Made by a program: the position numbers and the translations under genes. A stretch of DNA of 64,000 nt, from positions 1 through 64,000 of the forward strand of contig WVSL01000014.1 of the NCBI GenBank assembly GCA_015689685.1. Reading direction: 5' to 3'. The DNA comes from Rhodobacterales bacterium HKCCE2091 (GTDB lineage: Bacteria; Pseudomonadota; Alphaproteobacteria; Rhodobacterales; Rhodobacteraceae). The notes below the pieces were generated by a model. It saw only the letters and a program-made list of their open reading frames with translations. It made no database searches and was not told the DNA's origin. Below, piece after piece: positions 54,007-64,000 of this stretch. Within the stretch, counting starts at the first letter, position 1; each line of letters begins with the position of its first letter.

Positions 54007-56374
54007 GGACGGGCAGGGGACGCCCGAGGGTGAGTTGATCGACCGACTGCACCAGCGCGTCGCGGTCGATGCGGAAGTGGCGATAGAGGTCGCCGATGGT
54101 GCCGGTCTGGCCGAAATGCTCGACGCCGTGGGCGATGGTCCGGTGCCCCGCGACGCTGCCGAGCCAGGCCAGCGTGGCCGGGTGGCCGTCGATCACCGTC
54201 ACAAGGCTGCACGTTCGCGGCAGCGGCGCGAGCAGGCGTTCGACATGGGCGCGGGCGCAGGGATTGCCGCGCGCCCTTTCCCGCTGCGCTGCCGTCCAGC
54301 CGGCGTTGAGCCGGTCGGCGGAGGTGACGGCCAGGACGCCGATGTCGCGCCGGCCCTCCGCGATCCGGCCGGCCGCGGCGATGGCCTCGTCCGCGACCGC
54401 GCCCTGGTAGGCGATCACCACGTCACAGTTCGGCCCCGGCGGGCGCAGCCAGTAGGCGCCGTCGACCGCGCCCTGGACAAAGGCGTCGTCCCGCCGCCGT
54501 CCGGGCTGTTCCAGCGGCTTGGTCGACAGGCGCAGGTAGACCGACCCCCCGGTCTCGTCCCTGAGCCAAGTGCGTTCGTCGGGGTCGCCCCCGCCGTCGC
54601 GCTGGAGGTAGTCGAAGGCCCATTGCAGGATCACCGCGAGTTCGTCCGCGAAGGCGGGCTCGAAGCTCGCCAGCCCGTCCTGCGCCATGCCGGTCAGCGG
54701 CGTGCCGATGGACTGGTGCGCGCCGCCCTCGGGCGCCAGCGTGACGCCCGAGGGCGTGCCCGCGATGATGAAACGCGCGTCCTGGTAGCAGGCGTAGTTG
54801 AGCGCATCGAGGCCCCGGTGAACGAAGGGATCGTACACCGTGCCGATCGGGATCAGGCGTTTGCCGAACAGGCTGTGGGACAGCCCCGCCGCGCCGAGCA
54901 GGAGGAACAGGTTCATCTCCGCGATGCCCAGTTCGAGATGCTGGCCGGCCGGCGTGAATTCCCATTTCGCGGTCGAGGGGATGCGCTGTTCGATGAACAC
55001 GTCCGCCACGGTCTCGCGCGCGAAGAGCTTGCGGCGGTTGACCCAGGGGCCGAGCGAGGTGGTGCCGGTCACGTCGGGCGACGTGGTCAGGATCCGGTCT
55101 GCGAAGGCGCTGTCGCCGCGGGCGATGTAGTCGAGAATGCGGCCGAAGGCGGTCTGGGTCGATGTCTCCCGATCCGTGGCGGCGGTGATCGCGGGCGGGC
55201 TCAACCGGGCGTCGTCGCGGCGGCGCGATCCGCCCGCGAAGAACGGCACGCGGTCGAGGAAGGCGCGCAGTGCGGGAGGGTCCGCAACGGTCGCGAAAGG
55301 TTCCCACTCCGCGCCCTCGGCCACGCCCATGCGCGCCTGCCAGTCCGTCATCTGCCGGGTGGTCATCAGCCCGCCGTGATTGTCCTTGTGACCGGCGATC
55401 GGCGTGCCCCACCCCTTGATCGTGTAGGCGAGGAAGCAAGTCGGGCGGTCGTGGTCGATCGCGGCGAAGGTGTCGGCCATCGTCTCCACGCAGTTGCCGC
55501 CCAGGTTCTCCATCAGCGCGGCGAGTTCGGTGTCGTCGCGGCGGTCGATCAACGCCGAGACCTCGCCCTGGTCGCCGAGATCCTCCATCAGCCGCTGCCG
55601 CCAGACCGCGCCGCCTTGGTAGGTGAGCGCGGCGTATTCCTGGTTCGAGCAGCGGTCGATCCAGTCGCGCAGCCGGTCGCCACCCGGCTCCGCGAAAGCC
55701 GCGCGTTGCAGCGCGCCGTACTTGACCCGGACGACATCCCATCCGAAGGCGCCGAAGATCTTCTCGATCCGGTCGAACAGCCCTTCGCGCACGATCCCGT
55801 CCAGCGACTGGCGGTTGTAGTCTATGATCCACCAGCAGTTGCGCAGGTCGTTCTTCCAGCCCTCCTGGAGCGCCTCGTAGACGTTGCCCTCGTCGAGCTC
55901 CGCGTCGCCGACCAGCGCCACCATCCGGCCCGGCGTCACCCCGGCACCCCAGGTTTTCGCGGTCACGTAGTCCTGCACCAGCGAGGCGAAGGCGGTGATC
56001 GCGACGCCGAGCCCGACCGAGCCGGTGGAGAAATCGACGTCGTCGCTGTCCTTCGTGCGGGAGGGATAGCTCTGCGCGCCGCCGAGCCCGCGGAAGGCTT
56101 CGAGTTTCTCCCGGCTCTGGCGGCCCATCAGGTACTGGATCGCGTGAAAGACCGGCGAGGCATGAGGCTTGACCGCGACCCGATCCTCCGGCCTCAGCGC
56201 GGAGAAGTAGAGCGCGGTCATGATCGACACCATCGAGGCGGAGGACGCCTGGTGCCCGCCCACCTTGATCCCGTCGACCTTGGGCCGAAGGTGGTTGGCG
56301 TTGTGGATCATCCAGTGCGACAGCCACAGAAGCCGCTGCTCGATGGTCTTGAGATATTCGCGATCGGTGGTCAT
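54002..56374 (-). CDS. MdeB/AceE-like homodimeric 2-oxoacid dehydrogenase E1 (thiamine diphosphate)
   Basis: 790 residues from the ATG at 56374 (GGGAGG upstream). Transketolase-fold features: HQASSASMVSIMTALYFSAL, the FSTGSVGLG block, and the ThDP/Mg motif GDAELDEGNVYEA running to IIDYNRQSLDG. The pyrimidine-domain Glu region follows (HLELGIAEMNLFLLLGAAG). It is shorter than pyruvate dehydrogenase AceE (~890) and close to MdeB, an E1-like enzyme for 2-oxobutyrate beside methionine gamma-lyase in Pseudomonas. Here an Lrp-type gene is divergent as in that system, but no mdeA or E2 gene is nearby. Function on pyruvate or 2-oxobutyrate is inferred. Confidence 0.78.
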   Translation of the reverse strand: MTTDREYLKTIEQRLLWLSHWMIHNANHLRPKVDGIKVGGHQASSASMVSIMTALYFSALRPEDRVAVKPHASPVFHAIQYLMGRQSREKLEAFRGLGGAQSYPSRTKDSDDVDFSTGSVGLGVAITAFASLVQDYVTAKTWGAGVTPGRMVALVGDAELDEGNVYEALQEGWKNDLRNCWWIIDYNRQSLDGIVREGLFDRIEKIFGAFGWDVVRVKYGALQRAAFAEPGGDRLRDWIDRCSNQEYAALTYQGGAVWRQRLMEDLGDQGEVSALIDRRDDTELAALMENLGGNCVETMADTFAAIDHDRPTCFLAYTIKGWGTPIAGHKDNHGGLMTTRQMTDWQARMGVAEGAEWEPFATVADPPALRAFLDRVPFFAGGSRRRDDARLSPPAITAATDRETSTQTAFGRILDYIARGDSAFADRILTTSPDVTGTTSLGPWVNRRKLFARETVADVFIEQRIPSTAKWEFTPAGQHLELGIAEMNLFLLLGAAGLSHSLFGKRLIPIGTVYDPFVHRGLDALNYACYQDARFIIAGTPSGVTLAPEGGAHQSIGTPLTGMAQDGLASFEPAFADELAVILQWAFDYLQRDGGGDPDERTWLRDETGGSVYLRLSTKPLEQPGRRRDDAFVQGAVDGAYWLRPPGPNCDVVIAYQGAVADEAIAAAGRIAEGRRDIGVLAVTSADRLNAGWTAAQRERARGNPCARAHVERLLAPLPRTCSLVTVIDGHPATLAWLGSVAGHRTIAHGVEHFGQTGTIGDLYRHFRIDRDALVQSVDQLTLGRPLPVR

Positions 56375-56485
56375 GGCGGGCCTCCCTCGCGCGAGTTTAC
56401 CGCAAGGTGCATGTCGGTTTCCGTCAAAGGCACTAGAGAAACTGGAAAGATGCGCCGGCTTCCGGCAAGATTCCTCGAAAGCTTG

Positions 56486-56965
56486 ATGGAAACAGCCAAG
56501 TTGGTGCCGGGCATGGACGCGATCGACGAGAGAATCCTCCATCACCTCCAGTCGGACGCGCGGCTGTCGCACCAGGACCTGGCGGAGCGTGTCGGGCTGT
56601 CGCCCTCGCCCTGCGCGCGCCGGATCCGCAAGCTGGAGGCGGACGGCATCATCACCGGCTACAGCGCGCGGATCAACGAGGCGAAGATGGGTTTCGGGTT
56701 CAGCGTCTTCGTTTCGGTCCGGCTGGATCAGCAGGTCGACAGCAGGCTCGACACCTTCGAGCGGCAGGTGCGGGTCTGCTCGCAGGTCGTCGATTGCTGG
56801 CTGATGACCGGCAGCTTCGACTACCTCCTGCGGGTCGCCGTCGCGGATCTGCACGAGTTCGAGACGTTCCTGACCGGAACGCTGACGAAGATCGCGGGCG
56901 TCGCGTCGATCGAATCCTCGATCCCGATCCGCCGCGTGAAGGACCAGTTCGCCCGCCTGCGCTGA
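56486..56965 (+). CDS. Lrp/AsnC-family regulator
   Basis: 159 residues from the ATG at 56486; an ATG at 56450 (after GAAACTGGAAAG) or 56513 would change length by +12 or -9 residues. The N-terminal winged helix (DERILHHLQSDARLSHQDLAERVGLSPSPCARRIRKLEADGII) and the C-terminal RAM/ActR ligand domain (DCWLMTGSFDYLLRVAVADLHEFE) are classic. It is divergent from the MdeB-like gene, the same arrangement as mdeR-mdeB, so it probably activates it in response to an amino acid. Convergent with the AcoR-type gene, 11 bases apart. Confidence 0.87.
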   Translation: METAKLVPGMDAIDERILHHLQSDARLSHQDLAERVGLSPSPCARRIRKLEADGIITGYSARINEAKMGFGFSVFVSVRLDQQVDSRLDTFERQVRVCSQVVDCWLMTGSFDYLLRVAVADLHEFETFLTGTLTKIAGVASIESSIPIRRVKDQFARLR

Positions 56966-56976
56966 CCGACAGTCGG

Positions 56977-59022
56977 TCAGGGCTTCTCGATGTGGTACTG
57001 CTTGAGCTTGCGGTAGAGTGTCGGCCGCGAGATCCCGAGCTTGGCGGCGACGCGGGTCAGGTTGCCCTTCTCGGCCACCAGCGCCCGCCGGATCGCGGAG
57101 GCCTCGATGCTTTCGAGATCGCCGGAATAGCCGCTGAGGATGTTGCCGATGGAATCGTCGCCGGTGTCGTCGCCGTCGGCGAAGTCGTCGCGGATCTCGG
57201 GCGGCAGGTCCTCGGCGCGGACGAGCGTGTCGGTCTTCAGCAGGATCAGCCGCTGCACGACGTTGCGCAACTCGCGGACGTTGCCAGGCCACCGGTAGGC
57301 GCGGAGGTGGTTCAGCGCGCCGTCGCTGTAGCCGAGCGGCTCGCGCCCGGCTTCCTCGGCAAGGGTGCGGGTGAAGTGTTCCAGCAGGAGTACGAGGTCG
57401 TTGCCGCGCTCGCGCAGGGGCGGAACCTCGATGGTGATGACGCCGATCCGGTAGAACAGGTCGCGGCGGAACTTTCCGTTGGCGATTTCCTTGCGGAGAT
57501 CGCGGTTGGTCATGGCCACCAGCCGCACGTCGACCGGGCGCCGCTTGCTGTCGCCGATCCGGTAGACCGCGCGCTGTTCGAGCGCCCGCAGCAGGTAGGG
57601 TTGCAACTCGATCGGCATGTCGCCGACCTCGTCGAGACAGAGGACGCCGCCGTCGGCGAGCTCGAACTTGCCCTCGCGCCCGCCGCGCACCGCGCCGGTG
57701 AAGGCGCCTTCGACGTAGCCGAAGAGCTCCGCCCCGATCAGGTCGCCGGAGATCGCCGCGCAGTTGACCGTGACGTAGGGCGCATCGGGCTTCTTGCTGC
57801 GGCCGTGGATGAGGCGGGCGAAGAGCTCCTTGCCGACGCCGGTTTCGCCCTGGATCAGCACCGTGACGTTCGCCGCCGCCGCGCGTTCGGCCAGTTCGAT
57901 CGCGTCGAGCATCCGCGGGGCCTCGCCCACGATCACCACCTCGGCCTCCGACACGCCCGGGCGCGGCCTGATCCGACGCGGCTCCGCCGCCGGGCGGGTC
58001 CGGGCGCGGTGGTTGTCGATGAACAGCGCCGCGCCGCGATAGGTGCCTTCGAAGCTCAGCCGCTCGAGCCCCTTCGGCTGGAACTCCGGCGGCAGGATCT
58101 TCCCGATGTCGGTGCCCGAAAGCTCCTGGTTCTGGGACAGGAGCTTCTTGCCGACGGCGAGTTTCTCGAACGGCAGTTGAAGCCGTTCGTCGAGTCCGCG
58201 GCGGAACTGGATCCGGCCGGTCTTGTCGAGCAGGATCACGCCGTCCTCGGCGCGGCTGAACTCCGACATCAGGAAGGCTTCGAGCAGCTGCGTGCGTTCC
58301 TTGCGCTGCTGCTCGGCCAGGGCGATCTCGATCTCGCGCGCGGCGGCCATGACCAGCGCGAGGTTGTGTTCGCGGAAGATCTGCGGCGGGCCGGACAGGT
58401 CGACCACGCCGATGACCGACTGGTCGATCGGGTCGTGGATCGGCACGCCCGCGCAGGTCCAGTTCTGCACCCCTTCGACGAAGTGCTCGGCGGCGTGAAC
58501 GTAGGTCGGCTGCCCGGTCTTGAGCGCGGTGCCGATGCCGTTGGTGCCGATGGCGTTCTCGCTCCAGATGCCGCCGATCTCGAGATGGATGTCGTGGCCC
58601 TGTTCCAGCACCGACTGGTCGCCGATGGCGTCGATGATGACGCCCAATTCGTCGGCGAGGATCAGGATCGTGCGCGCGTTCTTGAGGTGCGGGGCCAGCC
58701 GCTCGAACGCCTGCTGCGCGGCGTCGCGAAGCTGCGAGTTGAGCTGCTGTCGGCGCCAGACGTCGTTCTCGTCGGTGATCCGCCGGGACCCGTGGCGGGC
58801 TGCGTCGACGCCGGATTCGATGCTTCGGCGCCAGGAATCCGCGATCACGTCGCGGACGCTCTCCGGGCCGGCCTCGTCCGTCTGCCGCGCGGTGACGAAC
58901 CGTTCCCACGCGCGTCTTGTACGCGACTCCGAGTATTCACCGCTGCCGACCGCCGGGCTCACGGCGACCCCTGGGTTGTCGAAATAGCTGCGCCTAGGCA
59001 TAGCCGGTATGAACCTTTCCAT
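56977..59022 (-). CDS. AcoR-type sigma-54-dependent activator
   Basis: 681 residues. N-terminal AcoR region with a GAF sensor at ~110-240 (GGIWSENAIGTNGIGTAL, NWTCAGVPIHDPID), then a PAS-like segment. The sigma-54 AAA+ domain follows, with Walker A GETGVGKE near 391, the GAFTGA loop near 440, and LDEVGDMP. The C-terminal Fis helix-turn-helix is NLTRVAAKLGISRPTLYRKLK. Regulators of this class control alkane/alkene, acetoin and alcohol oxidation operons. Its place at the end of the GroEL/ADH cluster suggests it activates that operon and the oxygenase predicted beyond the window. Confidence 0.9.
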   Translation of the reverse strand: MERFIPAMPRRSYFDNPGVAVSPAVGSGEYSESRTRRAWERFVTARQTDEAGPESVRDVIADSWRRSIESGVDAARHGSRRITDENDVWRRQQLNSQLRDAAQQAFERLAPHLKNARTILILADELGVIIDAIGDQSVLEQGHDIHLEIGGIWSENAIGTNGIGTALKTGQPTYVHAAEHFVEGVQNWTCAGVPIHDPIDQSVIGVVDLSGPPQIFREHNLALVMAAAREIEIALAEQQRKERTQLLEAFLMSEFSRAEDGVILLDKTGRIQFRRGLDERLQLPFEKLAVGKKLLSQNQELSGTDIGKILPPEFQPKGLERLSFEGTYRGAALFIDNHRARTRPAAEPRRIRPRPGVSEAEVVIVGEAPRMLDAIELAERAAAANVTVLIQGETGVGKELFARLIHGRSKKPDAPYVTVNCAAISGDLIGAELFGYVEGAFTGAVRGGREGKFELADGGVLCLDEVGDMPIELQPYLLRALEQRAVYRIGDSKRRPVDVRLVAMTNRDLRKEIANGKFRRDLFYRIGVITIEVPPLRERGNDLVLLLEHFTRTLAEEAGREPLGYSDGALNHLRAYRWPGNVRELRNVVQRLILLKTDTLVRAEDLPPEIRDDFADGDDTGDDSIGNILSGYSGDLESIEASAIRRALVAEKGNLTRVAAKLGISRPTLYRKLKQYHIEKP

Positions 59023-59059
59023 TCCAGTTCAGGCGCCGGGGCTGTTCCGTGGCGGTCGG

Positions 59060-59542
59060 TCATGTCAGGCCCAGTCGTTCCTCCAGCGCGGCGGCGAGGT
59101 CCTTCTCGGAGAAGTCGGGAGTGATCGCGACACCATCGAGATCCGCGATCGCCGCGCGGATTTCGTCGTCGATCGGAGAGATGAACCCGTTTTCGCTGGT
59201 CGCCGGAACGAATGTCCTGCCCATGAAGTTGCCACGGAGCTCTCCAAGCAGCTGGAGCTGGCGTCCGTTGTTGCTGTCGGCGAGCACAACACGATTGTTG
59301 ACGCTCACTCTCACGTAGGGGGCCGGCGCGTCGCTGGCGGGACGCGCCTTGAGATCGTGGATGATGAGCCCGTCGGGCTTGGGTTCCTCGCGCCGCGCGG
59401 CCTGTTCGGCACGCATCCTCGAGAAACCGCCGTTGCTGATCTGATCGGCAAGCCTGCGGATGACCGGAGCATTCTCCGAGATCAGTCGTTTGGCGCGCAC
59501 ATCCTCCTGCCGCGCGCCGTCGCGTTTCGAGAATATGTCCAT
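59060..59542 (-). CDS. Conserved-looking hypothetical protein in the oxygenase-accessory cluster
   Basis: 160 residues from the ATG at 59542 (GGAGGGAGG upstream); an in-frame start at 59575 would remove that ribosome site. Not recognised. The N-terminal part is helical and basic (MDIFSKRDGARQEDVRAKRL, then ISENAPVIRRLADQIS). A Pro/Lys linker follows, then a compact C-terminal part (YVRVSVNNRVVLADSNNGRQ, then LQLLGELRGNF). No signal peptide, membrane segment or metal motif. It lies between the AcoR-type gene and the glyoxalase gene on the same strand. Clear ribosome site and coding bias support a real gene. Confidence 0.7.
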   Translation of the reverse strand: MDIFSKRDGARQEDVRAKRLISENAPVIRRLADQISNGGFSRMRAEQAARREEPKPDGLIIHDLKARPASDAPAPYVRVSVNNRVVLADSNNGRQLQLLGELRGNFMGRTFVPATSENGFISPIDDEIRAAIADLDGVAITPDFSEKDLAAALEERLGLT

Positions 59543-59744
59543 ATTCTCAGCCTCCCTCCGAGTTGAAGTTATCAAGTTGTTACGTGCATTGCCACGACAA
59601 AGCGCCGGCTCCGCGTGGCGCGGAATTGGTTAAGTGCGTGAACAGATTGACTTTCCCTGCGGGTTAGCCGACCGATTCCGCGCGTGTTTCCATCGCTCTA
59701 GCTGTCGGGCGCTGCGGCCCGCGCCGCCGGACGCGGGCGGGCGG

Positions 59745-60140
59745 TCACTTGTAGCGGCCCCCGCGTTCCAGCACCTCGATCTGGTAGCCGTCGGGATCCT
59801 GCACGAAGAAGAACCGCGCCAGCGTTTCGCCGTCATGCTTGAAGTCGACGATGTTGCGCGGTTCGAAGCCCGCGGCGACGAAGCGCGCGTGCTCGGCATC
59901 CAGGTCGGTGACGCTGACGGCGAGATGGCCGTAGCCGTCGCCCAGGTCGTAGGGTTCGGTCCGGTCCTTGTTGACGGTCAGTTCGACTTCGAACGGGGTC
60001 TCGTCGCCCCAGAGGTAGATCAGGGTGAAGGACTCGAAGTCGAGCCGCTCGACATGGGTCAGTCCGAACGCCTCGCGGTAGAAGGCTTCGGAGCGCGCGC
60101 CGTCGAGGACGCGGATCATCGAGTGGATTGCCTTGGCCAT
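59745..60140 (-). CDS. Glyoxalase I (VOC family lactoylglutathione lyase)
   Basis: 131 residues, two beta-alpha-beta-beta-beta units. Metal ligands H6, E53, H72 and E122 match the His/Glu/His/Glu set of E. coli GloA, and FYREAFGL and DPDGYQIEVLERGG are typical. It isomerises the methylglyoxal-glutathione hemithioacetal. In a propane/acetone oxidation cluster it would detoxify methylglyoxal made from acetol, an inference from context. Followed on the same strand by the hypothetical and AcoR-type genes. Confidence 0.87.
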   Translation of the reverse strand: MAKAIHSMIRVLDGARSEAFYREAFGLTHVERLDFESFTLIYLWGDETPFEVELTVNKDRTEPYDLGDGYGHLAVSVTDLDAEHARFVAAGFEPRNIVDFKHDGETLARFFFVQDPDGYQIEVLERGGRYK

Positions 60141-60257
60141 GTCGGTCCTCGTGTCGTTTCGGGGCAGGGGCCCCGCGGCCTCCGACTGGGACAGGGGCCG
60201 CGGGGCATCGTCGGGCGGGACGGGAAACCCGCTACCGACAGGGAGGTCCGGCCGGGA

Positions 60258-61301
60258 TCAGGGGACGATGACGCCCCGCCCGGTGAACTTGCGGTTCTTG
60301 AAGTCGGAGATCGCGGTGTTGATGTCGCTGAGCTTGTACTCGGTCTGGTGCATCTTCACCTTGCCGTCGGCGTTCATCTCCATCAACTCCACCAGTTCGA
60401 TGTAGTCGCCCACGAGGCTGCCGCCGATCTTGATCTCGCGCGCCACCAGTTCCAGCGTCGGGATCTCCACCGTGCCGCCGTAGCCGATCATGATCAGCTC
60501 GCCGCCCTGGCGGAGCAGCTTCCAGCACAGGTTCTCGGTGCCGTGTTCGCCGACGAAGTCGATCACGACGTGGGCGCCGCCGCCGGTCAGGTCCGCGACC
60601 TCCTCGATCAGGTTGTCGCCGCCGTCGAGGACTATGTCCGCGCCGAGCTCCTTCGCCAGCTGCCGGGCGGCCGGTTCCCTGTCGACCGCGATCACCCGCG
60701 CGCCGCTCGTGTGCTTGAGCACCTGGAGCGCGATGTGCCCGAGCCCGCCGATCCCGAGCAACAGGACGTAGCCGCCGGGATTGAGCAGCTTCGCCGCCTT
60801 CTTCGCGGCGCGGTAGGCGGTGATGCCGGCATCTGCCATCGGCGCGACCTGAAGCGGCGTGATCCCGGTGTTCAGCTTGATGACCGACTGCTCGCTGGTC
60901 TTGAAGTACTCCGCGAAGCCGCCGTCGAGGCCGAGGCCGGGGAACAGGCCGTGGTCGCAGTACATGTCATGGCCGTAGCGGCAGTTGAGGCAGATGCCGC
61001 AGCTCCGGAACGGGTGGCAGATCACCGCGTCGCCGGGCTTCACCGAGGTCACGGCGCTGCCGACGTCCTCGACCCAACCGGCGTTCTCGTGGCCCATGAT
61101 GTAGGGCAGGAGCGAGCCTTCGCCGTCCATGATGTCCTTCCAGACACCTTCGATGATGTGCAGGTCGGTGCGGCACAGGCCGGCCGCACCGACCTTGACG
61201 ATCACCTCGTTCGGGGCCGTGATCATGGGGGGACGGACGTCTTCGATCTTCAGCTCCACGTTCATCGCGGGATCGTATTCGTATAGTCTTGCAGCCTTCA
61301 T
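60258..61301 (-). CDS. Zinc-dependent alcohol dehydrogenase (2-propanol dehydrogenase type)
   Basis: 347 residues of the MDR superfamily. Catalytic zinc residues C43, H71 and E72 (GLCRTDLH, MGHENAG), structural zinc C101, C104, C107 and C115, and the NAD site LLGIGGLGHIALQ near residue 172. The sequence resembles the ADH that accompanies propane monooxygenase genes in actinobacteria and alphaproteobacteria, oxidising 1- or 2-propanol. It directly follows the GroEL gene in the operon. Confidence 0.88.
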   Translation of the reverse strand: MKAARLYEYDPAMNVELKIEDVRPPMITAPNEVIVKVGAAGLCRTDLHIIEGVWKDIMDGEGSLLPYIMGHENAGWVEDVGSAVTSVKPGDAVICHPFRSCGICLNCRYGHDMYCDHGLFPGLGLDGGFAEYFKTSEQSVIKLNTGITPLQVAPMADAGITAYRAAKKAAKLLNPGGYVLLLGIGGLGHIALQVLKHTSGARVIAVDREPAARQLAKELGADIVLDGGDNLIEEVADLTGGGAHVVIDFVGEHGTENLCWKLLRQGGELIMIGYGGTVEIPTLELVAREIKIGGSLVGDYIELVELMEMNADGKVKMHQTEYKLSDINTAISDFKNRKFTGRGVIVP

Positions 61302-61367
61302 CGGGCGTTCTCCTCTGGGCAGGGACCGGCCGCGCGCCCCATCCGGCGGCGCGACCGGCGCGTGTGG

Positions 61368-62999
61368 TTACTGGCGTCCGAGACGTTCCGCGCCGCCGCC
61401 GAGCGCGGGGCCCTCGGTGGGATCGGCCTCGCCTTCCTCGAGGTCTCCGACGAGGGTCTCGGTGGTCAGGATCAGGGTGGCGACCGACGCGGCGTTGACG
61501 AGCGCGCTGGCCGGAACGCGGGCGGGGTCTATGATCCCGGCCTCGAACATGTCGGCGTAGTTGCCCGCGGCGGCGTCGTAGCCCTGACCCGCGGCGCCCC
61601 CGGCGACCTTCTCGACCACGGTCTCGGCGTCCGCGCCGGCATTGGTCGCGATCCGCCAGACCGGCTGCGTGAGCACCGAGCGGACCAGCGCGATGCCCTT
61701 GCCGACGTCCCCCATCGCGGTGAGGTTGTCGAGCACCGGCGCCACCTGCGCGAGGGCGGTGCCGCCGCCGGCGACCACGCCGTCCTCGGCCGCCGCGCGG
61801 ACGGCGCAGAGCGCGTCCTCGATCAGCTGGATCTTGCGCTTCTGTTCGACCGGGGTGAAGCCGCCGGCGTAGATGATCGCGCTGCCGCCCGAGAGTTTCG
61901 CCAGCCGCTCGCGCAGCTTGTCCTGCTCGATGTTCGGCGGGGCGACGTCGTACATGCGCTGCACCTGGTTGCGGCGCGCGACAACCGCGGCCGGATCGCC
62001 CTCGCCCCGGAGGACGCTGGTGGTCGAGGCCGTCGCACGCACCATCTCGGCCCCGCCGAGCTGGTCGCGGGTCACGTTCTCCAGCTTCTTGCCGAGGTCG
62101 CGGGCGAGGACCTGGCCGCCGGTGATGATCGCGAGGTCGTCCATCATCGCCGTGCGCCAATGGCCGTATTCCGGTGGGTGGACGACGAGGAACCTGCCGG
62201 CGCCGCCCTGGTCGAGCAGTCGCACCACCACGTCGGGCGCGATTTCCTCCGCGATGATCAGGAGCGGACGGTTCTCGCCGTCGGCGATCGCGATCGCCGC
62301 GTCAAGCATGGAGGGATGAAGGATCTTCTGGTCCGTCATCAGGATCAGCGGATTGCGCAGCACCGCTTCCATGTGCTCGCGGTCGGTGACCATGTGATGC
62401 GAGATGTAGCCGCGCTCGAACGACATGCCCTCCATCACCTCCATCGTGGTCTCGATGGTGACGCCGAAATCGGCCGAGATGACGCCCTCGCGCCCGACCC
62501 GCCCGTAGGCCTCGGCCACGAGGTCGCCGAGTTCGGGATCGGTGGCGGAGACGCGGGCGACGGCCTTGAGGTATTCGGGGTTGGACTCGCAATCGCGCGA
62601 GCTTTCGTCGATGGCCGCGATCACGCGCTCCACCGCCATCTCGATGCCGCGGCAGAGATCGACCGGGCGGACGCCGTTGTCGGTCAGCGCGACGCCCTTC
62701 TGGATCAGCGCGTTGGCCAGCACGATCGCGGTCGTGGTGCCGTCGCCCGCGACCTCGTTGGTCTGCATCGAGACCTCGCGGACGACCTGCGCCCCCATGT
62801 TCTCGAAGCGGTCGGTCAGTTCGATTTCTGACGCGATCGACACGCCGTCGCGGGTGACGAGCGGGGTGCCGACCGGGCGGTCGACCATCGCGTTGAGGCC
62901 CTTCGGCCCGAGGGTCGGTTCGACCGCCGCGGCGAGGCGCGCGACGCCCCGGGCGAGGGCCTTGCGGGCGAGTTTCCCGTGGACGAGCAGTTTAGCCAT
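61368..62999 (-). CDS. Divergent GroEL-type chaperonin (MimG-like)
   Basis: 543 residues from the ATG at 62999 (AGGAGGAAGAC upstream). ATP-site motifs TLGPKG and NEVAGDGTTTA are intact, and the second half retains GGGTALAQ and AGIIDPARV. It lacks the Gly-Gly-Met tail of housekeeping GroEL, ending GGGAERLGRQ. No groES is adjacent. Such stand-alone chaperonins are needed for folding the large hydroxylase of propane/acetone monooxygenases (MimG in Mycobacterium). The ADH gene follows it. Confidence 0.9.
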   Translation of the reverse strand: MAKLLVHGKLARKALARGVARLAAAVEPTLGPKGLNAMVDRPVGTPLVTRDGVSIASEIELTDRFENMGAQVVREVSMQTNEVAGDGTTTAIVLANALIQKGVALTDNGVRPVDLCRGIEMAVERVIAAIDESSRDCESNPEYLKAVARVSATDPELGDLVAEAYGRVGREGVISADFGVTIETTMEVMEGMSFERGYISHHMVTDREHMEAVLRNPLILMTDQKILHPSMLDAAIAIADGENRPLLIIAEEIAPDVVVRLLDQGGAGRFLVVHPPEYGHWRTAMMDDLAIITGGQVLARDLGKKLENVTRDQLGGAEMVRATASTTSVLRGEGDPAAVVARRNQVQRMYDVAPPNIEQDKLRERLAKLSGGSAIIYAGGFTPVEQKRKIQLIEDALCAVRAAAEDGVVAGGGTALAQVAPVLDNLTAMGDVGKGIALVRSVLTQPVWRIATNAGADAETVVEKVAGGAAGQGYDAAAGNYADMFEAGIIDPARVPASALVNAASVATLILTTETLVGDLEEGEADPTEGPALGGGAERLGRQ

Positions 63000-63065
63000 G
63001 TCTTCCTCCTTCACCGCGCAGGGGTTCTGCGGGTGCCTCCTGGACTTGCATTGCGTTTGGTCGGG

Positions 63066-63869
63066 TTATCCGGTTGCCGCGGATCTCCCTTTCGGTGGAA
63101 CGCGGCCGGCGATGAAATCCACGAGCGTGGGTCCATCCGGCCCGATCTCGACCTCCTTGTAGCGGGCCGAGGCCAGCCCCCGGCACAGAGCCCCGTTGAA
63201 CTCCATGTTGATCCGGGTGCCGCGGAGACGTTCGAGGTGCCGGGCCAGGGCCGCGGGGTCGATGCGCTGCTTGTCCCAGGTCGGAAATGCCGGATCATCC
63301 GGGTGTTCCGCCAAACCCTGCGACACCAGCAGCGCCCGGTACCGGGGCTTCTGACGCGTCTCCTCCTCGCCGGTGAACGCGAGCCGGTCGAAGTCGCCGA
63401 GCGTCATGCCGACGATCTGCTCCGCCGTGAGCCCGCGTTCCTGCAGCGCCAGGAGCATGACCTCCTGCCGCCGGTCGAAGGCCTTGGCCTCGAACTTCGC
63501 CGTCACCTCGTCGAGATCGGCGCCGTCGCAGTACTTGGCGAAGACCTCTCCGAAGGCCCGGCCGCTGTTGACGCCCTCGTTGACTTCGTCGCCGAAGCAA
63601 TGGTCGTGAAGCGTCACGGTCAGGCCGCGGACCCAGGGCAGGGCCGAGACCTCGCGCCTGATGCCGAAGGCCATCAGGAACGCGAAGTTCGGCGAGCACC
63701 AGTAGGTGGGAAGCCGGAACCCGACTTCCACCCGCCCGGAGTCGACGATCTCCAGGTGCTCGACGAAGCCCATCTCGGTGATGGGTTCGTCGAGCTCCGG
63801 ATCGGTCACCAGTTCGAGGCGTTCCCAGACGTCGCTTTCGAGGTCGGCCCTGATGATGTCCGTCAGCAT
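63066..63869 (-). CDS. MIP18/DUF59 N-terminal protein of monooxygenase clusters
   Basis: 267 residues. Residues ~10-100 form a MIP18 (DUF59) iron-sulfur assembly-type domain: ERLELVTDPELDEPITEMGFV and VEVGFRLPTYWCSPNFAFLMA, with the Cys placed where the family has its conserved one. The C-terminal ~165 residues (helical, DRRQEVMLLALQERGLT, GTRINMEFNGALCRGLASARY) match nothing recognised. The gene sits between an amidohydrolase and GroEL, as in propane monooxygenase loci, and may help assemble the diiron site. The gap to the amidohydrolase stop is four bases. Confidence 0.75.
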   Translation of the reverse strand: MLTDIIRADLESDVWERLELVTDPELDEPITEMGFVEHLEIVDSGRVEVGFRLPTYWCSPNFAFLMAFGIRREVSALPWVRGLTVTLHDHCFGDEVNEGVNSGRAFGEVFAKYCDGADLDEVTAKFEAKAFDRRQEVMLLALQERGLTAEQIVGMTLGDFDRLAFTGEEETRQKPRYRALLVSQGLAEHPDDPAFPTWDKQRIDPAALARHLERLRGTRINMEFNGALCRGLASARYKEVEIGPDGPTLVDFIAGRVPPKGRSAATG

Positions 63870-63873
63870 CGCC

Positions 63874-64000
63874 TCACTCCGCCGCGATCTGCACCGGCGC
63901 GCCAGCGAGCTGCTTCTTCTTCGCCTCGACGTCGACGCCGTAGAGCCGGGCCGCGTTCAGGCCAAGGATCTTCTCCTTGATCTCGTCGGTCAGCTGCACG
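63874..64000 (-). CDS. Amidohydrolase-family protein, C-terminal end (runs off right edge)
   Basis: Only the last 41 codons are present on the minus strand, ending at TGA 63876-63874. The tail has KEKILGLNAARLYGVDVE, the conserved closing motif of amidohydrolase 2-type proteins (last helix of the TIM barrel). Such a gene regularly lies between the monooxygenase subunits and the DUF59 and GroEL genes in propane-oxidation clusters. The start and the upstream operon are outside the window. Confidence 0.65.
   Translation of the reverse strand, partial: VQLTDEIKEKILGLNAARLYGVDVEAKKKQLAGAPVQIAAE

Follow-up and report, generated by a model that had tools for sequence, protein, structure and literature searches.

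A PrmABCD/MimABCD-like monooxygenase operon of Rhodobacterales with a probable sigma-54 factor, activator and promoter of its own

A complete operon for a soluble diiron monooxygenase (SDIMO) runs across the right end of a 64,000-nucleotide stretch of DNA (the window; positions 1 to 64,000 of contig WVSL01000014.1, here C6) from Rhodobacterales bacterium HKCCE2091. Window coordinates continue one to one into C6, which extends to 105 kb, and the host genome (G000) is a 4.44-Mb draft that is 99.96% complete. The operon resembles PrmABCD/MimABCD systems and is accompanied by rpoN, the gene for sigma-54. Sigma-54 usually counts as a global factor that works with many activators. In the present genome its role seems limited to a single catabolic operon: with a probability of roughly 0.75, the operon is controlled by a self-contained module of sigma-54, activator and promoter that is private to it and whose recognition has co-diverged. 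This reading builds on the gene content and order of the locus, its single rpoN, a census of activators with the GAFTGA motif and the co-variation of an RpoN-box residue with a promoter base. Since no other sigma-54 was found in the genome, a normally global factor would have turned operon-private.

The operon-linked sigma factor

The rpoN gene lies 553 nt upstream of the gene for the alpha hydroxylase subunit, on the same strand, and is the single PF04552 match in a genome-wide profile search of G000. Its product has all three sigma-54 domains (activator-interacting, core-binding and DNA-binding). It scores below the TIGR02395 cut-off (246.6 vs 277.35 bits), and its RpoN box reads SRRVVSKYRE, not ARRTVAKYRE. 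Judged by sequence, it is a divergent sigma-54.

In a scan of named genomes, the best 80 of 535 relatives of the operon were kept (Rhodobacteraceae, Roseibium, rhizobia and a few others). Among these 80 loci, rpoN is near the operon in 43, on the same strand in 29 and on the opposite strand in 14. A whole-genome census of rpoN covered 49 other genomes with the operon, for which completeness is not given; L042 and five matches of ~20-23 bits were left out of it. The locus contains rpoN in 42 of the 49, as the sole copy in 28 and with further copies in 14. Of 296 sampled genomes of the family, 103 have PF04552 matches; less nine with only matches of ~20-23 bits, 94 remain (a few of them fragmentary), and by our own count the other 202 have no match beyond such partial ones. 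Intact alpha is found in nine of the 296, all of which have rpoN, compared with 94 of 296 overall (hypergeometric test, 2.5e-5, relatedness ignored). In genome G219 (L234, G219:C11:122653-141610), alpha is decayed and a decayed piece of rpoN lies directly upstream of it; this 19-kb stretch holds no other cluster gene, and the genome-wide search of G219 gave no PF04552 match.

A quick tree of 163 rows placed all 47 linked rpoN genes, together with five unlinked ones, in one part of 52 rows (support 92), with 110 ordinary unlinked rows of the RRTV type outside it. The 30 same-strand rpoN genes whose box is changed group together as one clade, both in this tree and in a second, 66-row tree in which the RpoN box was masked (support 100). 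In the 66-row tree, the ordinary L114 falls among the linked genes and L216 lies apart from them; that all linked rpoN genes share one origin is therefore likely but not firm. The operon with rpoN nearby is also carried by the plasmids p-SCP4 of Ponticoccus alexandrii (94.4%) and p2 of Gemmobacter fulvus (92.4%). On the latter, a 311-kb plasmid, rpoN and a sigma-54 activator gene lie side by side upstream of the operon, both on one strand (L277, 4611-7777).

Activators

Sigma-54 needs the GAFTGA loop of an activator. The AcoR-type protein encoded at the far end of the gene cluster contains a GAF domain, an AAA+ domain with GAFTGA and a Fis-type helix-turn-helix. Ten matches to PF00158 were found in G000, eight of which were examined as loci, including two fragments of a single gene, and among these only the AcoR-type protein has GAFTGA. 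The others, named by eye from their translations, are a DctD-like protein with GAFPGA, NtrC/NtrX-like proteins without the motif, and proteins that resemble ClpB and MoxR. Nine more genomes in which the linked rpoN is the sole copy have 42 PF00158 places, of which 30 were examined. Each of the nine has one GAFTGA protein among them, encoded on the rpoN contig ~12-17 kb away; the remaining examined places comprise three GAFPGA/GAYPGA proteins and 18 without the motif. With one GAFTGA activator among those examined in each of the 10 genomes, little is left for a general sigma-54 to do.

The promoter and its pairing with the RpoN box

For 81 sequences, the 600 nt before alpha were searched for a -24/-12-type site, with our own scoring against 100 shuffles. 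In 70 of the 81 regions the best site was matched by at most five of 100 shuffles, and it mostly lies 190-340 nt before the start codon. The G000 site was matched by two of 100 shuffles.

Within the 30-member clade, residue 457 of RpoN (numbered by alignment with the E. coli protein; ordinarily Thr) is Val in 22 members, Met in four, Ile in three and Ala in one. Of their promoters, 29 have A at base -23, and only that of L022, the Ala member, has C. Linked sigma factors that keep Thr have C at -23 in 16 of 17 cases and T in one. Overall, -23 A accompanies Val, Ile or Met in 32 of 32 cases, and C accompanies Ala in one. Three of the 32 come from a second clade that belongs to another operon, in which L220, L221 and L229 have RRV and the sites TGGAAC, TGGAAT and TGGAAC, respectively, before a P450-like gene. 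The fourth member of that clade, L239, combines T457R with TGGCCC, a change of -22 from A to C (site identified by eye), and L039 combines R456S with TGCCGC, a change of -24 from G to C. Rhizobial promoters have -23 C, as does that of G117, which has an RRTV copy elsewhere. Among rpoN genes, L216, unlinked to the operon, has RRAV, and L206 has RRCV.

The helix of the RpoN box has been placed in the major groove at -24 (as far as the available part of the review PMC4496707 goes), and a direct reading of base -23 by residue 457 is therefore plausible.

As a side observation, rpoN is the last gene of the second operon in L238, L239, L240 and L241, and in three of these four the operon has its own TGGAA[CT] promoter. 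By eye, its genes resemble those for P450, ferredoxin, reductase, a glutamine-synthetase-like protein, an ABC transporter, aldehyde dehydrogenase and amidotransferase.

The enzyme

The first-pass annotation of the window had listed an amidohydrolase tail, a MIP18/DUF59 protein, a divergent GroEL, a zinc alcohol dehydrogenase (ADH), a glyoxalase and an AcoR-type activator, had read them as the accessory half of a prm/mim-type cluster and had predicted the hydroxylase, reductase and coupling protein to the right. All of these features were recovered in place on the minus strand by Pfam or NCBIfam profile matches (Table 1), and the predicted genes lie 1-5.3 kb beyond the right edge, in prm/mim order. 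The proposed check for diiron monooxygenase genes within about 8 kb past the edge yielded two PF02332 proteins (matches at C6:65563-66261, E 2.5e-74, and C6:68528-69202, E 5.1e-62). The presence of the hydroxylase beyond the window rules out a chance or incomplete neighborhood. The GroEL-like protein scores above the PRK12849 subfamily cut-off and below that of the GroEL equivalog TIGR02348 (513.7 vs 582.1). A second groEL-like place, on contig C34, is 66-70% alike in DNA to the operon gene.

Table 1. Features of the operon and its flank. Positions without prefix are those of the window; C6 marks positions of the whole contig.
Feature	Position	Strand	Profile match or remark
AcoR-type sigma-54 activator, 681 aa	56977-59022	minus	GAF E 3.4e-15, Sigma54_activat E 2.6e-63, HTH_8 E 1.2e-12
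orf171, uncharacterised	59060-59575	minus	likelier start 59542 (160 aa)
VOC/glyoxalase-fold protein, 131 aa	59745-60140	minus	PF00903 E 8.7e-14
Zinc-dependent ADH, 347 aa	60258-61301	minus	PF08240 E 1.6e-27, PF00107 E 1.2e-26
GroEL-like chaperonin, 548 aa	61368-63014	minus	Cpn60_TCP1 PF00118 E 8.1e-61
DUF59/MIP18-type (FeS_assembly_P) protein, 267 aa	63066-63869	minus	PF01883 E 4.8e-10
Amidohydrolase	C6:63874-64899 (window: 3' end, 63874-64000)	minus	Amidohydro_2 PF04909 E 4.2e-52
MmoB/DmpM coupling protein	C6:64979-65350	minus	PF02406 E 2.9e-27
Beta hydroxylase subunit	C6:65368-66432	minus	PF02332
Reductase (ferredoxin-FAD-NAD)	C6:66481-67566	minus	
Alpha hydroxylase subunit, 554 aa	C6:67619-69283	minus	PF02332
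Sigma-54-type promoter (predicted)	C6:69533-69548		GGGAACGCCGCTTGCA
rpoN	C6:69837-71213	minus	PF00309 E 3.1e-7, PF04963 E 1.5e-27, PF04552 E 3.9e-37

The set of SDIMO components is complete, with alpha and beta subunits (PF02332), a ferredoxin-FAD-NAD reductase and an MmoB/DmpM coupling protein. The E, ExxH, E, ExxH positions of alpha, which we take to be the diiron ligands, align with those of MmoX, and among solved structures the best matches are chains of methane monooxygenase hydroxylase. The core order alpha-reductase-beta-coupling, followed by amidohydrolase, DUF59, GroEL and ADH genes, is that of PrmABCD/MimABCD (group 5). In the part of PMC4428276 that was available, the set downstream of prmABCD comprises a metal-dependent hydrolase, a metal-sulfur cluster biosynthetic enzyme, an alcohol dehydrogenase and GroEL, in agreement with the gene-order match drawn in the first-pass annotation, and some prmABCD strains also carry a Fis-family regulator. 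MimD is the sole NCBIfam match of the coupling protein, which scores below the equivalog cut-off NF045941 (108.6 vs 150 bits). The equivalogs of soluble methane monooxygenase (sMMO) likewise fall short of their cut-offs, with 219.2 vs 500 bits for MmoC and 108.2 vs 700 bits for MmoY. Because neither the sMMO nor the MimD cut-offs are reached, the assignment to group 5 rests on gene order and content, which suggest a PrmABCD/MimABCD-like enzyme. The enzyme itself is thus of an already known kind, and the earlier interpretation is supported. A toluene/phenol-type monooxygenase was rejected, plasmid matches of that type being only 23-28% identical.

In the best 80 of the 535 relatives, alpha is 91-97% identical and the core order is kept, with variable accessory genes. 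The DUF59 homologue holds the same place in those relatives' loci that extend far enough.

Proposed mechanism and alternatives

In the proposed mechanism, the AcoR-type activator would sense a small inducer of a C3 pathway through its GAF domain, perhaps together with orf171. The AAA+ ring of the activator would then, via its GAFTGA loop, open the promoter complexes that RNA polymerase forms with the RpoN of the operon. Transcription from the promoter GGGAACGCCGCTTGCA would cover the genes for alpha, reductase, beta, coupling protein, amidohydrolase, DUF59 protein, GroEL-like protein, ADH and VOC protein, and probably orf171 and acoR as well. The GroEL-like protein, in a presumed MimG/MmoG-like role, and the DUF59 protein may mature the hydroxylase, and the ADH and the amidohydrolase may act downstream in the pathway. 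Within the clade, the recognition helix (T457 to V, I or M) and the promoter (-23 C to A) would have shifted together. We infer that the operon RpoN transcribes the operon promoter, as we do the inducer, the substrate, for which propane, acetone and 2-propanol are candidates, and the roles of the accessory proteins.

The linked RpoN might instead be an ordinary general sigma-54 that is simply housed here, the changes in box and promoter being drift that leaves specificity unchanged. The identities among same-strand relatives with a changed box (44-57% for rpoN, 93-97% for alpha) mark rpoN as fast-evolving, RpoN control of sMMO is already known (PMC5874634, from the part available), and the ordinary sigma-54 of Roseibium tolerates -23 A. 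We nevertheless consider this rather unlikely in view of the single GAFTGA activator among those examined in each of 10 genomes and of the consistent pairing of residue 457 with base -23. One clade for all Val, Ile and Met rows plus L022 was also rejected (p-AU 0.0115, for a group that was named after the tree had been seen). Moreover, the canonical -24/-12 pattern with at most one mismatch is not enriched in G000 (13 sites vs 25 in a reversed control), so that no wide canonical regulon is apparent; the scan covered this canonical pattern, and the operon promoter is not among the 13 sites.

It is also conceivable that the linked rpoN serves the operon while other sigma-54 copies read the operon too, the linkage being the product of co-transfer on plasmids or islands. 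Operon and rpoN do occur together on plasmids, more than one rpoN is present in 14 of the 49 genomes, and the rhizobial and Roseibium loci show no rpoN within the fetched flank. Against this, 28 of the 49 genomes have no other rpoN copy that could take part, and the linked group has a promoter base that sets it apart; we regard this alternative as rather unlikely.

The private module, which we prefer to both, has several results to contend with. Besides the 14 genomes with further rpoN and the scan's restriction to the canonical pattern, six of the 49 genomes have only an unlinked ordinary copy and one, a metagenome-assembled genome, has none. In 11 of the 81 upstream regions more than five of 100 shuffles match the best site. 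In G000 the motif alone is not above chance (four matches with at most two mismatches in L006, vs 3.33 expected), and the case for the promoter therefore rests on its conserved position. This motif control and the 66-row tree, with its placement of L114 and L216, slightly lower our trust in the explanation. The GAFPGA proteins might also use sigma-54, and the census covered eight of the 10 PF00158 places in G000 and 30 of the 42 in the other nine genomes. Roseibium has -23 A (L025, L028) or T (L016, L019) with an ordinary RRTV sigma-54, and five other rpoN genes of the family, not accompanied by the operon, have Thr replaced by V, A or R, and one has C. Because independent switches of the box number only two on the starred branches and three at most, the sign test is undecided (p 0.5).

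A strict code, in which -23 A needs V, I or M, was rejected: Roseibium has TGGAAT with RRTV, and -23 A thus does not need an altered box. A bolder form of the private module, to which we give slightly less than even odds, is a natural re-coding in which residue 457 (Thr to Val, Ile or Met) reads base -23 (C to A), with at least two origins and with L039 and L239 as one-off companions. Operon, activator, sigma factor and promoter would then form an orthogonal module that can function where the host has lost sigma-54.

orf171 and neighboring genes

A 171-aa open reading frame next to acoR, orf171, was missing from the first-pass list. It belongs to no Pfam or NCBIfam family, family searches gave no significant match, and the best Foldseek hit of its AlphaFold2 model (pLDDT 80.1, pTM 0.53) against the PDB has an E of 0.5. 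Homologues occur in 10 of the 296 family genomes, namely the nine with intact alpha and G120, where a 5-kb contig carries it beside an acoR homologue and has no further cluster gene. In the relatives' loci, orf171 adjoins acoR wherever both are in view, which suggests that its product may be a partner of the regulator.

On the plus strand, an open reading frame for an Lrp/AsnC-like regulator (by eye; 56144-56965) is convergent with the AcoR gene, their ends being 12 bases apart. To the right of the window, a WD40-repeat protein is encoded on the minus strand (C6:72381-73514; L006:16381-17514). Of 85 loci with the operon, rhizobia included, 84 have a homologue, which in one of them is a short match where the locus ends. 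Also conserved beside this gene are a 344-aa protein of unknown kind (49 of 85 loci) and two small proteins (43 and 39 of 85). These four are possibly uncharacterised accessory proteins.

The leader of the alpha transcript (~250 nt; L006:13284-13560, minus strand) contains two blocks, AAGAACGAAGG and ACCTTTGCC, that are invariant across all 27 aligned sequences (this one and 26 relatives), whose mean identity is 47%. A structured RNA leader was rejected, as the stem that would join the two blocks never varies in the 27 leaders and thus gives no covariation. Rfam gave no match up to an E of 1 in the 1.2 kb around the leader.

Comparison with known systems

The PrmABCD/MimABCD systems of Rhodococcus, Gordonia and Mycobacterium have, from the portions of their descriptions available, the same core order as the operon here and the same genes for a hydrolase, a DUF59-type protein, ADH, GroEL and a Fis-type regulator. 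The alpha subunit encoded on a Rhodococcus plasmid is 65% identical to that described here. Unlike those systems, the present operon has the VOC gene and orf171 added, and it is flanked by rpoN and the WD40 gene. In the available portion of the prmABCD paper (PMC4428276) there is no word that begins with 'sigma'.

The sMMO clusters represent a different enzyme branch and have a different gene order. A study by Stafford from 2003 reportedly, to go by its title, concerns rpoN, mmoR and mmoG, and rpoN is said to adjoin the mmo genes in that system. According to the available part of PMC5874634, sMMO operons depend on RpoN, the GAF-type MmoR and the GroEL-like MmoG, and Methylosinus trichosporium no longer expressed mmo once its rpoN had been inactivated; control by sigma-54 therefore has a precedent among diiron monooxygenases. 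As here, the sMMO clusters (mmoXYBZDC with mmoR and mmoG) have a sigma-54 promoter before alpha, a GAF-type activator and a GroEL-like protein. Their promoters read YTGGCACG (PMC5874634), whereas the main clade here has TGGAAC and a changed RpoN box. A search of open-licence PMC papers found none that describes, for Rhodobacterales, a sigma-54 that is linked to an operon and has an altered RpoN box. As far as these searches show, a sole-copy, operon-bound sigma-54 and a paired change in helix and promoter are new within that literature.

If the private module is real, it would account for the entry of a sigma-54-dependent operon into hosts that lack sigma-54: the operon, found on plasmids, would bring its own sigma factor and activator. 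The residue-base pairs would also lend themselves directly to tests of orthogonal sigma-54 systems, and perhaps to their construction.

In Cereibacter sphaeroides, RpoN1 serves nif, RpoN2 fla and RpoN3 xrpA, RpoN4 is without a known role, each studied RpoN works with its own activator, and promoter base -11 helps to separate RpoN1 from RpoN2 (all from the available part of PMC11999139). There the RpoN copies share one cell, whereas here the linked copy stands alone, with the change at -23 and T457. By eye, the copies in a genome with four rpoN genes (G046) lie near flagellar genes, near nifS/iscA-like genes, elsewhere, and near this operon, and one rpoN copy of Cereibacter johrii lies beside the operon. 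Service to a linked monooxygenase operon would be a candidate function for the unexplained RpoN copy of C. sphaeroides.

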